This document shows positions 10,978 through 23,900 of a stretch of 25,383 bases of DNA, one piece after another. Source of the DNA: Syncephalis plumigaleata (lineage: Eukaryota; Zoopagomycota; Zoopagomycetes; Zoopagales; Piptocephalidaceae). The notes beneath the pieces are model-generated. The model had not been told where the DNA came from and ran no database searches. It was given only the letters and a program-made list of their open reading frames with translations. The stretch spans positions 1 through 25,383 of the forward strand of contig JAIXMF010000189.1 of NCBI GenBank assembly GCA_025201365.1, written 5' to 3'. A program made the translations under genes and the position numbers. How positions within the stretch are numbered: the first letter of the stretch is position 1; every line of letters begins with the position of its first letter.

Positions 10978-13134
10978 ATGCCGCGTTATTTACTTCAACT
11001 GGCTCAGGTGCACGATCAGTTTCGTCTACCGGAACTGGAATCACTTGCACGCCTATACAATATTGATTTCGCTTTCGATAGAAACAGTTATGCTGATGAT
11101 GCAAGTAGACAAAGCAAAGAATGCCAACTAGTTTGTGAATACAGCAAGTGATTAACAGGAAACGCAGAGTCCTTTTCTCTTTATAGAGTTGGAAAATGAT
11201 AGTCAAGCTAAAAAGCTTATTGAACGCTCGATACTTGCAAAGTAAGTTGGAATAGATGTATCACTGGCATGCAATACAAGTATGCTGATATAGACGGCTA
11301 TACCATCCATTAGGGCCATCTACGAGCCATGGGCATGTCAGGATAATTACGCGGCGTTACATGAAGAAATAAAAGCACATCCTGAACGATGGGTAATCAC
11401 GATAACTAAGCATGTTAAGAATATTAATGCTAATGGCATGTATGTATATAGCCGATGTATAAAACGACATCGTTCAAGTTTAGTGTTACAGTATTTGGCG
11501 GGACATTACCGCAGGAGGATCAACTCGATATCATCAATAGCTTTGCTTATTTGCCATTTGAAGGAAAGATTGATTTGAAAAATGTAAATATACATATATA
11601 TATAATGATAGACTAGAGTTGTACACATGAATAGCAGTAGCTCATTCGAATGGTATATTTTGATATTATGAAATAGCCACAAGTAGAATTTGTCGTCATT
11701 GCAGATTACGGACTTGATTTTACGCGTAATAATCTACCAGAAGTCCCGCAAAAGGTGTATATGGGACGACTTGTAAGTTTAGTCAGTATCAGCTAATATC
11801 ATGAGTTGCATTAACCATTATAGTGCAATTGATCAGGTTGCCCATAGTAATCGGGATATTGTTAATCGATACGATTTGAAGAAAAGAAAATATCTGAGTA
11901 ATACAAGTATGGATGCTGAACTATCCTTGATCATGGCCAATCAAGCATTAGTAAGGAATATATATATATATGCAGCTTGAATAATTCCATTCTTACCTTT
12001 TGTGTTCTAGGCAGCACCGGGTAAATTGATCTATGATCCATTTGTCGGTTCAGGTATTAGAATAGTATAGAATGCAAATAATCAGTAGATTGACTGAGTA
12101 AGTATATATGATTATTAGGTAGTTTCCTATATACATGTAGTCATTTCGGTGCATATACAATGGGATCCGACATTGATGGACGACAATTTCGTGGTCGAGG
12201 TAATCCCGTAATAGATGTAGGATTGATGACTACACGCCCTACTAATGATGGATGTGTTATGTAGATGGTAAAAGTGTAAACACTAATATCGAGCAATATG
12301 GACTACATGGAAAAGTACTTGATGTGTTGACACTTGATATTAAACATCATGCATGGCGACGTACACCGCTATTTGATGGCATTGTAACAGGTAGATGATA
12401 ATGCTGATGCAGTTACATTACCCTATTATTAATATTGTTATTGTAATATAGATCGTAGGTGACAAACTTGTTATTAGTACTATTATACATGTATCTGATA
12501 TACTTATTACATTGATAGCTCCTTATGGTGTTCGTGCTGGTGCCAAACAGCTTGGTCGTAAAAATGGACAAGTTAGACCTATTCATATGGTGGATGGAAA
12601 GCCTGCTCATTTGTAAGTTACGGCATGATGTTTTATTTATATACGATATGACTGACGTGTACCATTAAACTTGATGATATGGATAGACAAGAAAACTACT
12701 ATCCACCTACGCGTCCTTACGAGATGGACGATGTAATACGAGATTTACATGAATTCGCCGCTCAGAATCTAGTATTAGGAGGTCGTCTTGTTTATTGGTT
12801 ACCCACCATTACTGATGAGTAAGTGGATTTGCGGAAATAACAAATGCGTATATGTATAAAAGAAAAGGAAAAGAGAGATTGAAGGCTAATCAATCACGAT
12901 ACTAGATATGAACCAAAGGATATTCCTGAACATCCGTGTCTTACGGTTATTGCTAATAGCGAGCAGTCATTCGGTCTTTGGAGTCGACGACTTATCACAC
13001 TAGAGAAGACACGATCCTACAACTTTGTAGAGGAGGAGGACACGGACAATCCATCTAACGAGCATGTACCGGCTCATTCCAAATTCCGTACGCGGTATTT
13101 TCAGCCTAATGACGATCATGTAGCTGACGAGTAA
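10978..13134 (+). CDS. TRM11: tRNA (guanine10-N2)-methyltransferase catalytic subunit Trm11
   Basis: Thirteen exons: 10978-11100, 11168-11241, 11314-11392, 11452-11583, 11677-11772, 11837-11950, 12011-12053, 12119-12199, 12265-12390, 12452-12454, 12519-12612, 12687-12818, 12906-13134. They total 1326 nt and encode 441 residues. The N-terminus MPRYLLQLAQVHDQFRLPEL and the SPFLFIELEND...SILAKAIYEPW region fit the THUMP-type RNA-binding half. The methyltransferase half has motif I DPFVGSG (215-221), MGSDIDGR, the catalytic DPPYG (290-294) and VLGGRLVYWLP. Trm11 acts with Trm112 to methylate G10 of tRNAs in the cytoplasm. The Asp and the first base of the first Pro of DPPYG come from a 3-nt exon; skipping it keeps the frame but yields APYG. 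Intron 1 is GC-AG. Length matches the family (about 430-460). Confidence 0.95.
11101..11167 (+). other. GC-AG intron 1 of TRM11
   Basis: The exon ends SYADD (GAT GAT) and is followed by GCAAGT. The intron ends GATTAACAGGAAACGCAG, with a branch-like TTAAC. The join gives SYADD-SPFLFIELEND, restoring the family pattern in which S-P-F follows the variable loop. The nearest GT donors do not keep phase. Confidence 0.8.
12452..12454 (+). other. TRM11: Three-nucleotide micro-exon of TRM11
   Basis: The upstream exon ends ACA G at 12390 and the downstream exon starts CT CCT TAT GGT at 12519. Between them lies TATAG-ATC-GTAGGT, so ATC is preceded by an acceptor and followed by a strong donor. Including it gives GAT CCT CCT TAT GGT, that is DPPYG, the family's catalytic motif. 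Leaving it out gives GCT CCT TAT GGT, losing the Asp. The two flanking introns are then 61 and 64 nt, typical here, whereas one undivided intron would be 128 nt. Confidence 0.85.
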
Positions 13135-14512: not shown

Positions 14513-15108
14513 TTAGTAACGAGGTAGACCAGGCGCCGGCGCCTTCTTAAAAAATTGTGTTTGTTCATTTGCATTGCATGGAAGTCTGATGGCATGTCCA
14601 TCGAAGAATGCTGTTTTATCATGAACGAGGCAATCGTACTCTCCGTTATTCTTATCATCGCTAACCTTTGTAATGGCTTTGATTTCATCTCTAATACAAT
14701 GGTTAGATGAGTATGTATACATACTACGCATTATAAAAGCATTGCTTACTGTTTGTATTGATCGCCATGGTAATAACGCCAAAGTACGTTAACATCATCT
14801 TTATTGCAGTCCTTCAGGTATAAGGGTCGTTCTTGCGCGAGACATTTGTCGGTCTGAACACTTCGTATCATGATATAGTCGCCCACTTGTTCATCCTTCC
14901 AAAGTACGTCGAAATTCAATGGATCATCCCAACTGCAATCGCGAAACCATGGATCATTACCATTTATTAGTCGCAAACATTTAGTATCCTGAAAAGTAAG
15001 ACGATACGATCCTGCACCTGGATATCCCTCGGGATCAGCCGCGACACCAAGCGACATAGCTAGTATGACACTTGCGATAGCAGCAGCAATAAGCATAATT
15101 GGAGTCAT
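14513..15108 (-). CDS. Secreted six-cysteine beta-trefoil-like protein, paralogue A
   Basis: Two exons (15108-14750, 14690-14513) give 178 residues. A hydrophobic signal peptide (residues 1-24, MTPIMLIAAAIASVILAMSL, ending GVAA) precedes the mature start DPEGYPG. Three similar lobes follow, each with a cysteine pair: KCLRL...RDC (44, 58), KCLAQ...KDC (89, 101), DCLVH...LPC (140, 158). Each lobe ends in an aromatic Q-x-W-like position (FDVLW, NVLWRYY, TQFFKK). This is how ricin-B-type beta-trefoils look, though no sugar-binding motif is certain. The C-terminus is LPRY. It is one of three tandem paralogues (14513-15108, 15546-16167, 17177-17710). An extracellular or cell-surface role is inferred; function is unknown. 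The start was chosen to give the signal peptide. Confidence 0.85.
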
Positions 15109-15545: not shown

Positions 15546-16167
15546 TTAATAGCGAGGTAGAGTGGCAGGTGCTGGCACCTTCTTGAAGAATTGTGTTCGC
15601 TCACTTGCATTGCATTGCATGTTAACGGCATGTCCCTTGAAAAATGCCGTCTCATCGTGTACGAAACAGTTGTACTCTCCGTTCTTCTTATCATCGCTAG
15701 CCTTTGAGATGGCTTTGATTTCATCACTAATGATAGAGTCATACATGTAAATACTTGGTAATGATAATAATAATAATAATAGCATTAGTAATAATGACTT
15801 ACGCTGCATATTTCTCGTTGTCGCGATAATAACGCCATAGGTGTGTGCTGTCATCTTTATTGCAATCCTTTAATGTCATGGGTCGACCCTCAACCAGGCA
15901 TTGGTTAGTCTGAACACTTCGTATCATGATATAGTCGCCGACTTGCTCATCCTTCCAAAGTACGTCGAAATCCAATGGATCTTCAAAGTTGCAGTCACGA
16001 AACCATGGATCATTACCATTCACTAGTCGTAAACATTTGTTATCTTGGTATGTAAGACGATAGGCACCTGCGCCTGGATATCCCTCGGGATCAGCCGCGA
16101 CACCAAGCGACATAGCTAGTATGACACTTGTGGCGGTGGCAGCAGCAGTAAGCATAATTGATTTCAT
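15546..16167 (-). CDS. Secreted six-cysteine beta-trefoil-like protein, paralogue B
   Basis: Two exons (16167-15803, 15726-15546) give 181 residues. The signal peptide (1-25, ending SLGVAA) and the mature start DPEGYPGAGAYRLTY are close to paralogue A. Cysteines at 45, 59, 90, 102, 142 and 160 keep the same spacing. Lobe ends are FDVLW, THLWRYY and TQFFKK, with C-terminal LPRY. The intron (76 nt) sits at the same place as in A, between the second lobe and DEIKAI. Protein identity with A is high, and a stretch of about 50 bases across the signal-peptide cleavage region (about 16079-16130) is identical to A, indicating recent duplication or gene conversion. Confidence 0.86.
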
Positions 16168-17176: not shown

Positions 17177-17710
17177 TTAGTATCGTGGTAGTGCTGCAAC
17201 TGGGTTTTTCTTAAAGAACTGGTTGCGATCATTCCTGTTGCATGCGAATGTGACAGTGTGACCCTCAAAGAAAACCGTTTTGTCATAGGAGATACAGGTA
17301 TACCCGCCGTTATTTCTGTCATCACTTGATTTGGTAATGATCTTCTGCTCATCGGCATCGTAGTCATCGCCATGGAAGAAGCGCCATAGATTGTTACCGT
17401 CGCTATCGCTACAATCCTTCATGGTTGTCGGACGACCTTCGTACAAGCATTTACCGCTTTCGACACTTTTGATGTTGAAATATTCGCCGACCTGTACTGC
17501 CGTCCACATTGCGGCAAAATCAAGCGAATCCTCATAGTTGCAGGTCTCGAACCACGGGTCGTTACCCTTCCTTAGTTTCATACACTTGCCTCCGTGATCA
17601 ATACGGAAGGCATCCTGGCCGGGATAGCCAGTTGGATCGGCTGTCGCCGTGGAAAGTGTCGAGATTATGAGCGAGGCTACAAAAGCGATTGCCGTTAGAT
17701 AGGAACGCAT
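17177..17710 (-). CDS. Secreted six-cysteine beta-trefoil-like protein, paralogue C (intronless)
   Basis: A single exon encodes 177 residues. The signal peptide MRSYLTAIAFVASLIISTLS ends TATA, and the mature start DPTGYPGQ matches A and B. Cysteines at 43, 57, 88, 100, 139 and 157 have the A/B spacing. Lobe ends are AAMW, NNLWRFF and NQFFKK, and the C-terminus is ALPRY. It is clearly more diverged than A is from B, with more basic and glycine residues, and the intron of A and B is missing exactly between HGDDYDA and DEQKIITK. Function is unknown; secretion is inferred. Confidence 0.87.
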   Translation of the reverse strand: MRSYLTAIAFVASLIISTLSTATADPTGYPGQDAFRIDHGGKCMKLRKGNDPWFETCNYEDSLDFAAMWTAVQVGEYFNIKSVESGKCLYEGRPTTMKDCSDSDGNNLWRFFHGDDYDADEQKIITKSSDDRNNGGYTCISYDKTVFFEGHTVTFACNRNDRNQFFKKNPVAALPRY

Positions 17711-20900: not shown

Positions 20901-23900
20901 TTAAGTCTTCATAAATGTCTTGTTGAGTAGTGTGAGTAGACGTGCAACATTCAATTGAACGTATTCCAAGTCCAAGAGTTGCACATTATCTTGTTGCTTC
21001 TCCAAAAGATCATCAAGCTTCAGATCCATCTCTAGGATGGCCTTCTCACGACCCTTGTAGTGCAGGGAAATGACAAAGGTACCAGTGGATGGTGACGTGA
21101 TATTGAAGTATATATTACTACGTCTATATATATATATATATATCGATAGAATTATACCAAAAACATGATAATGTTAATTCCAATTACATAATAGTAACAC
21201 GTAGGTTGAACTTACCGATTCTCGGGCACGTTACTTTCAATGATGACGCCATCCTTCTCCAGTTGCATGTGCGTAAACTTGACGGGACCTGTGACACGGG
21301 TGGATTTACTCTTCTTCTTAAGATCAAGTCCACTCGATTGTAAGCGTACATTTTGCAAATACGCTTTGTACGAGTCGAGCTGTGAGCGAAGATAGCTGTT
21401 ATGGTCGCAAATGGTCTTGTATACACTCTCAAGAGAGGCAATCTCTCGACACACTTTATCGCGAAGATTACCCAAGTGAACAAGTTCTTGTTTGACCTCA
21501 TCGGTCAGCAACTTGTAGTTATCCATGCGATTGACCACGCCTAATTCCTCTAGTTCACGTAGCATGTCCGCCACCTTGATACCTTTACGTACCAGCGTGG
21601 CATCCTTGCTAGTTGCGGCAGCCTCCGCTACTGCCGACAAAACAATGGTCTTTCGCGCCATCTGTGGTAAGCTACGCAGCAATTGCACAAAGATCGACTT
21701 TGTTTCCATGAATAAAATGTCATTCTGACTAAGATTGTTATCACCGATAAGGTTCATATCTAATTGAAATCAGTCATTGTTAATACTGTTACAACTATGA
21801 AGTATACATTGTCAGATTGGCTATTTACCATTGATCGGTGTCTCCCATCGACTGAACAATGCGAGTTCAATTGTTTTGTTCTCGGAACGTGATACTTGCA
21901 CGGGTGCAGAGCCGAGCTCATTCAGAATAATACGAAGATGCTCCGATTCACCGGGTGACTATAATGTACATTAGATATCGTCGAGGAGATCGTTCCTTGT
22001 CATTACCGCTACTTACCAGTTCATCTAAATGTTGTTCAAGTAGAGCATGCGTATTATACACCTCATTCAAGGTAATACTCAGGGAAATGTCCTTTTTCGA
22101 TAGGCCATGTATTGATCCATCTATTGTGATTGTCATAAACAGAGTGAGCAATGCAAGTTTACAAGATATATACGTATGTATCCCTATCTATACTCACCTC
22201 TAATGACTCGTAGAAATCGCCCACTTCACATAATTCGTTTAAGAATTTGTTAATACGTTGTTTGTTGTTGTCCACGAATGGATTCAACTTGATCATGTAC
22301 ACTCCTTCGAGTAGGATGGCTTATTGGCCAAATTTTGCAACATTTTAGCCATCTAGTCGATCATTCACATTAGTATAACGTGTGCACAATGCTTATTATC
22401 GTGAATACTCACCAGAGTAAGCGTACGACGTGGATTCTTCTCTGGAGTACCGTCGACTAACATGTACGCATTCGGTGTAACAATGGCCGGATTAATGAAA
22501 CGCAGGAAGAAGAACCCGCCAATAAGTGAGCACACGCTGTATTCGGTTGCATTCGGATATCGACGCTATTCAGTATAATGCACAGACACACACTTGTTAG
22601 TAAGTGATGTAATTGTATACTATGCAATCCTTAGTAGTCGTAGTATCAATAGTTACCTTGGTTAATGATCGAATCTGTTTGCATATCCATCGAATACCGT
22701 AGGGGACCTGACCAATGGATGCCAGGATGGTGTCGAGGAATGAATTCGCAATGTCCATGAGTTTATCCAAACGTGGTGCAATAATCTTCTGAACATCTTC
22801 ATTCTCTGCCGCCATATCGCCCGATACACCGCGTGGCAAATCGCACGGTTCACCACGATCCTCCATGTCCTTGACCATACGTTCGTATACCTAAAAGCGC
22901 GCGTATCATTCATTCGATTAGATCCTCGTCATGAATAGCTGTGACTCGTTAATGAGTAATCTCGAAGAGTACCTTAAGTGGATTGATTTCTAAATCCGTG
23001 TCACGGTCTTCTATAAGCTTATTAATGGAATCGGATAGAACGTGTTTTAGATAAGTCTGACCAGGACCACGACTAATGGTGATAATACGTATTAGTAATG
23101 CATTTTTGTTAGTACAGTTGAGAGTACAATTAGAACATACCGAGTATAAGTGGTCATCATACGAGATACAGGTGTGTTGGCACGTAGTAAACTACCGAAA
23201 TCGGTAGCCATTTCGAATTGTGCTGATAATACACCCTGGAACATCGTCAATAGCAAGTGTTCCTCACGGGATTCATATTGATTTCCGTATAGCGTGAACA
23301 TAACCGTTTGCAGTAACGTGTCGATTTCCGAGAGAGTACCAAGCGTGTCAAGTGTGCAATATGACGTGGCTCGGCTTGCAACAAGAAACAAGTTACCATA
23401 ATGCTATTGCACAACGAGGGAGTATTAACAAGGAGTCTCGTTCAAGTGTTGTCATCATCATCTAGTATAAATACCTGTTTCTTACGATCATCAGGAAATC
23501 TCCTTCAACGTGTTCCGATTCTTCCAAATGACTAGCTACTTCTTGTTGCTATAATGCAATTCAAATGTTAATCGACATCATCATCATCAATGACTAATAC
23601 GAGCATTACTATTATTTACCTCGTGCAATGCCATACGATTCTGAATAAGTAGAGCAATACGACTGTCAAGATAGCGGACATCACGTTCTAGAATGAAATT
23701 ACGTTTTGATTGTGATGAAATTCGAGATTTCAAATCGCGTAGACTACGCTGTTCCCGTGCCAATTCATCCTCCACCTCTTCATCCTGTTCGGCAGCCATT
23801 GAATAGAGTGCGCTAACCGAGTAGCGCTTACTGGTGCGGTCATCATGCTGAAGGGAGGCCTTTAGCGGCAGCGATGGTAGCGGTACGTGCCAAGACGGAA

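Follow-up and report, generated by a model that had tools for sequence, protein, structure and literature searches.

A predicted three-nucleotide exon, most likely constitutive, supplies the DPPYG aspartate of a TRM11 gene in the fungus Syncephalis plumigaleata

Introduction

Exons of 1–8 nt have already been published, also in fungi (PMC12940212, PMC4674806, PMC7392893), and the accessible portions of these papers describe several that can be set beside the exon reported here. The 1-nt exon of the Fusarium P450 CYP621A lies within a conserved motif that the neighbouring exons failed to rebuild; it contributes a single base to the codon of a glycine in a structural motif, its skipping breaks the frame, and it was backed by RNA reads from two species and by 20 orthologues (PMC12940212). 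The 8-nt exon of Phanerochaete chrysosporium CYP5141A1 forms part of the highly conserved I-helix motif, and its skipping also breaks the frame (PMC12940212). In Arabidopsis, the 1-nt exon of APC11 is constitutive, is located 333 nt into a 422-nt stretch and was tested by reporter constructs (PMC4674806). Exons of exactly 3 nt are described for Drosophila homothorax, Drosophila troponin T and rodent NCAM; those of homothorax and NCAM are alternatively spliced, and that of homothorax sits between two domains (PMC7392893).

In this study, a stretch of 25,383 nt from S. plumigaleata (contig JAIXMF010000189.1, hereafter the window) was analysed, and exon 10 of its putative TRM11 gene was predicted to consist of the three bases ATC. 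Like the two P450 exons, this exon is fungal and falls within a highly conserved motif, and as with CYP621A the motif could not be rebuilt from the neighbouring exons. Unlike them, it can be skipped without loss of frame, being 3 nt long rather than 1 or 8. It provides an active-site Asp instead of a base of a structural glycine codon, and it is predicted from the sequence, whereas the CYP621A exon has transcripts and orthologues behind it. As for APC11, intron definition with sequential removal is proposed, although the APC11 exon belongs to a plant and its upstream intron is far longer. In length the exon equals the three animal exons, but it differs from those of homothorax and NCAM in being most likely constitutive and from that of homothorax in lying in an active-site motif. 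No micro-exon of TRM11 was found among the best literature matches listed. The TRM11 exon joins the known ultra-small exons, and what is special about it is the active-site Asp that it carries together with the frame-silent nature of its skipping. To our knowledge, it is among the smallest exons proposed in a fungus.

Materials and methods

Splice signals were evaluated with a small self-trained gene finder, for which 200 kb of contig C223 and the window were used with tandem arrays masked and no minimum exon length. Its starting tables were seeded with the nine other TRM11 introns (introns 9 and 10 were excluded), and TRM11 was omitted from every retraining. The interior of the 128-nt stretch between exons 9 and 11 was subjected to 20,000 dinucleotide-preserving shuffles as a control for chance. 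C223 was compared with the window over 24.4 kb, and the match may extend further. Other small exons were judged by the motifs HRDxKxxN, ENGKPLxEA, DLNRNW and HAGGN, which we take to be the expected forms.

Results

Gene model and identity of TRM11

The coordinates of the gene and of the features discussed below are given in Table 1. On splicing the 13 exons, no internal stop codon was encountered. The Pfam methyltransferase domain UPF0020 was matched at 38.7 bits over residues 184-301 (cut-off 22.3) when ATC was included, and at 25.3 bits over residues 184-235 when it was left out. The protein combined a Rossmann-type methyltransferase domain with the SAM motif DPFVGSG and the DPPY-type motif DPPYG, the features by which TRM11 was recognised. 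A search of the PDB matched three sequences (5e71, 6zxw and 6zxv), all of Trm11-type tRNA methyltransferases. Opposite DPPYG, 5e71 reads TDPPYG while 6zxw and 6zxv read TDYPY, the Asp thus being present in 3/3 and the first Pro in 1/3. We take 5e71 and 6zxv to be archaeal Trm11-type tRNA methyltransferases. The structure 6zxw is archaeal (PMC9957541), and a passage on a catalytic Asp was not found in the accessible portion of the yeast Trm11 paper (PMC8999500). As the match to NCBIfam TIGR01177 (64 bits, E 1.4e-17) stayed below its cut-off of 316.55, in a library built for bacterial and archaeal genomes, and as no Pfam THUMP match was obtained in the 441-aa protein at E 0.001, the name TRM11 (putative tRNA m2G10 methyltransferase) is based on the methyltransferase domain, the structures and the reading of the sequence.

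Table 1. Positions of the TRM11 gene and of selected exons and introns in the window
Feature	Positions	Strand	Basis
TRM11 gene, 13 exons, 441 aa, ATG to TAA	10978..13134	+	open frame, UPF0020 match, Trm11-type structures
Intron 1, inferred GC-AG (GCAAGT...ACGCAG), 67 nt	11101..11167	+	likewise in second copy
Exon 7, bears most of SAM-binding motif DPFVGSG	12011..12053	+	gene model and structure alignment
Exon 9, 3' end ...ATT GTA ACA G	12265..12390	+	gene model
Intron 9, 61 nt, GTAGAT...ATATAG, phase 1	12391..12451	+	gene model, site scores
Exon 10, predicted micro-exon ATC; G-ATC-CT = GAT CCT, Asp-Pro of DPPYG	12452..12454	+	gene model, Pfam, gene finder, scans, second copy
Intron 10, 64 nt, GTAGGT...TGATAG, phase 1	12455..12518	+	gene model, site scores
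Exon 11, 5' start CT CCT TAT GGT	12519..12612	+	gene model

The homology-based model, which for introns 1 and 3 rests on the protein reading, was discordant with the gene finder at both of them, and thus the gene finder does not serve as an independent check of the entire gene. Intron 1 is the least supported intron of the model; the gene finder preferred 11105-11186. The GCAAGT donor is also found directly after a 12-nt exon in a C223 gene for an aldehyde dehydrogenase, and because of this recurrence GC-AG introns may not be rare in the genome.

At the DNA level, a query of 12300-12700 matched only the window and C223, with no further TRM11 copy. A diverged paralogue may exist elsewhere in the genome; an exon-by-exon search with PF01170 gave a single place, C1:1044905, and missed the exons of TRM11 itself. 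That place was read by eye as a METTL5-like methyltransferase gene with an NPPFG motif, likely another Trm112 partner. A pattern scan of genome contigs for relatives matched 10 stretches, none of which was confirmed.

The micro-exon and the DPPYG motif

The initial annotation had proposed that a 3-nt exon supplies the Asp of the TRM11 DPPYG motif, and on rereading the sequence its coordinates, sizes and residue numbers were found to be exact. Exons 9, 10 and 11 spliced together read GAT CCT CCT TAT GGT, i.e., DPPYG at residues 290-294, with the exon set as AG-ATC-GTAGGT, internal, coding, well inside a 15-nt limit for micro-exons and needed for the motif. On joining 12390 straight to 12519, the frame stayed open over 440 residues and read ...IVTAPYG, in line with the statement that the flanking exons by themselves lack DPPYG. 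The accompanying claim of a frame-neutral, full-length skip form without the Asp also held, with the addition that Asp-Pro is replaced by Ala, so that one Pro is lost along with the Asp.

None of the single excisions tested (at least 10 nt, with a start in 12331-12560, an end no later than 12639 and no constraint on the end dinucleotides) restored DPPYG, because exon 9 can add a single base behind ACA and exon 11 can add two in front of CCT, which leaves exactly A[CT]C missing. In the case of paired introns (donors GT or GC and acceptors AG, each intron 35 nt or longer and the middle exon no longer than 90 nt), two solutions gave DPPYG, and each contained 12452-12454. The second solution, with a GC donor at 12379, was rejected as it deletes residues GIVT. 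Accordingly, the check for other splice sites that yield DPPYG without 12452-12454 returned none within the tested bounds. DPPYG needs ATC under all splicing tested, and with ATC the whole gene reads as TRM11.

The shuffles produced AG-A[CT]C-GT in any form in 66/20,000 cases and with both introns of at least 45 nt in 12. Moreover, an AG-NNN-GT of equal strength was present in 0 of the 41 gene-finder introns of at least 100 nt.

Splice sites and intron lengths

The 5th, 50th and 95th percentiles of intron length were 50, 70 and 130 nt (n=314). Introns 9 and 10 were placed at the 24th and 31st percentiles, respectively, which agrees with their description as introns of normal size, while the 128-nt intron that would result from skipping was placed at the 94.6th. 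The donor scores of introns 9 and 10 corresponded to the 52nd and 35th percentiles and the acceptor scores to the 45th and 80th, respectively. GTAGGT was the fourth commonest donor (14/308), and GTAGAT was seen five times. Branch-site-like motifs were located about 19 nt (TTAAT) from the 3' end of intron 9 and about 20 nt (CTGAT) from that of intron 10. Both were weak and neither was of the CTAAC/CTAAT form, which was present in 110/314 sample introns compared with 39/314 after shuffling.

The gene finder kept the micro-exon at intron penalties of 10, 12.3 and 14 by 5.2, 2.9 and 1.2 bits, respectively, and dropped it at 16. Earlier runs, disturbed by a satellite array and not used for the percentiles above, had selected the micro-exon at penalties as high as 16, and one of them lost it at 18. 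Splice signals alone mildly favour the micro-exon; it is the protein evidence that decides. A tandem array of roughly 5.5 kb with units of ~83 nt lies at about 611900-618100 of C223; its repeats resemble introns separated by exons of 3 to 6 nt and led the gene finder astray.

Second copy of the locus

The window (contig C100) matched C223 at 97.5% over about 23 kb, and judging from the sequence C223 looks like the other haplotype of the window contig. The divergence was highly uneven, the number of differences per 600 nt ranging from 1 to 26 over 717-24502 of the window. The TRM11 copy on C223 showed an identical exon-intron structure, micro-exon and splice dinucleotides. Since the second copy has the same structure, a sequencing slip is an unlikely source of the arrangement. 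Introns 9 and 10 differed between the copies at one position, 12448 (A to G), position -4 of the intron 9 acceptor site. The coding differences comprised 7 synonymous and 3 non-synonymous codons; by a rough count, pS was 0.024 and pN was 0.003 (pN/pS ~0.12), and thus the protein appears to be constrained. A conserved island near the micro-exon (one difference in 12002-12626) was also considered and then dropped, because other 600-nt stretches have 1-3 differences.

Other small exons and neighbouring genes

In the 275 kb sampled, motif-supported small exons of 8, 12 and 18 nt were found besides that of TRM11. The 8-nt exon ACATTAAG of a kinase gene (C223:300001-350000) gives D-I-K of HRDIKPGN, a motif that none of the single excisions tested there rebuilt; the Pkinase score was 116.8 bits with the exon and 35.6 bits without it, the latter for the piece before the frameshift. 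The 12-nt exon of the aldehyde dehydrogenase gene (C223:100001-150000), which uses a GC donor, gives PYKE of ENGKPYKEA and replaced the 6-nt exon called by the program; the scores were 224.2 bits with 12 nt, 211.8 bits with 6 nt and 208.2 bits when skipped. An 18-nt exon of a carboxypeptidase-like gene (C1:200001-250000), read by eye only, gives DLNENW.

The raw output of the gene finder contained 15/264 internal exons of at most 15 nt, that of TRM11 included, of which four had length 0 and were artefacts and most others were unconfirmed. An additional 50 kb, the source of the 18-nt exon above, yielded 78 internal exons, four of them of at most 15 nt and none confirmed as called. Two further calls were not accepted, one of 14 nt in a glyoxalase-II-like gene, where the expected HAGGN reading continues through the proposed donor, and one of 3 nt (ATG) in a saccharopine-reductase-like gene. 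It seems that conserved motifs in this genome contain small exons over a range of lengths, the TRM11 exon marking the lower end. The initial remark that exons this small are rare is true in general and perhaps less so here, given the three other motif-supported exons.

Elsewhere in the window, three adjacent related gene-finder genes on the minus strand (14513-15096, 15546-16167 and 17177-17710) encode small secreted-looking proteins of about 175-185 aa that have DPxGYPG and FFKK motifs in common. The minus-strand model at 20901-23799, with ten introns, was named RasGAP/IQGAP-like by reading. Chitin synthase 1 (PF01644) was matched four times in the 32.6-Mb genome and not once in the 14 prokaryotes used as controls, on which basis the host was classed as a fungus.

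Discussion

Taken from the sequence, ATC at 12452-12454 is very probably a real exon of this fungal TRM11 gene, and most likely a constitutive one. The two flanking introns would each be recognised across the intron, as suggested by their shortness. Since two spliceosomes hardly fit on either side of three bases, introns 9 and 10 would likely be removed sequentially, perhaps the downstream one first, and the tiny exon would never be bridged by two spliceosomes simultaneously. For the Arabidopsis 1-nt exon, intron definition with removal of one intron after the other was proposed by its authors (PMC4674806), and a tendency for the downstream intron to leave first is described for plants (PMC8831610), according to the accessible portions of both papers. 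The initial annotation had added that exon-definition models poorly explain such exons; this is true in general and irrelevant here, where introns are short (50-130 nt between the 5th and 95th percentiles). As for the origin, two phase-1 introns probably came to sit three bases apart within a conserved motif, and selection on the protein would keep all three bases.

A different proposal of the initial annotation was a built-in on/off splice choice. Taken as a regulated switch, condition-dependent inclusion or skipping would yield an active or a catalytically dead, near-full-length TRM11. Skipping does preserve the frame and take out the motif Asp, and a regulated micro-exon is known from Trichoderma virens, another fungus (PMC11121469, as far as its accessible portion goes). 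However, no sequence mark of regulation was seen, the four splice sites being of ordinary strength and both intron lengths ordinary, and frame-neutral skipping is no evidence of regulation because it follows from the length of 3. Moreover, skipping demands an intron near the upper end of the length range and must bypass a closer acceptor that is similarly strong (5.5 vs 7.1 bits). A switch would also be without evident use, since the loss of trm11 leaves the laboratory growth of yeast comparable to that of wild type, although the trm1 trm11 double deletion has a growth defect (both from the accessible portion of PMC9957541). We therefore regard such a regulated choice as unlikely. The broader idea that frame-neutral skipping of this 3-nt exon acts as a one-amino-acid kill switch of TRM11, and that catalytic residues of several enzymes are more generally placed on removable micro-exons (the TRM11 Asp, the Asp and Lys of the kinase HRD loop), is likewise held to be quite unlikely.

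It is very improbable that the whole of 12391-12518 is a single 128-nt intron, with a protein that truly reads TAPYG and a degenerate or repurposed TRM11 gene. A protein that appears constrained (pN/pS about 0.12) and retains DPFVGSG speaks against this, as does the fact that an AG-A[CT]C-GT with sites as strong as those observed arose by chance in 0/20,000 shuffles; the DNA-level search showed no TRM11 copy apart from the haplotype-like one, although a diverged copy may exist. These points are weighed against outer sites that are both good, a frame that stays open and the choice of the gene finder at penalty 16. A stwintron, i.e., an intron nested in an intron whose splice signal it interrupts, the two being excised stepwise so that nothing is left, would account for two introns adjacent in a row, and the accessible portion of PMC6616335 describes stwintrons from Aspergillus and connects them with exon skipping. 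Introns 9 and 10 are, however, each complete GT-AG units, and a product with nothing retained reads TAPYG, while DPPYG demands exactly three retained bases; we consider this arrangement scarcely conceivable here. Compared with these alternatives, the constitutive exon is the preferred reading, and the micro-exon looks like the short end of the small-exon range of this genome and not like a switch.

Conclusions

As a residue from the active-site motif of a conserved enzyme lies on this exon, an annotation that misses ATC would file TRM11 as a dead enzyme. The other small exons in the sample hint that such exons may be systematically missed in this genome. Because skipping is frame-neutral and would leave a countable mRNA, the TRM11 locus offers a clean test of the way in which two introns separated by three bases are removed in short-intron genomes.
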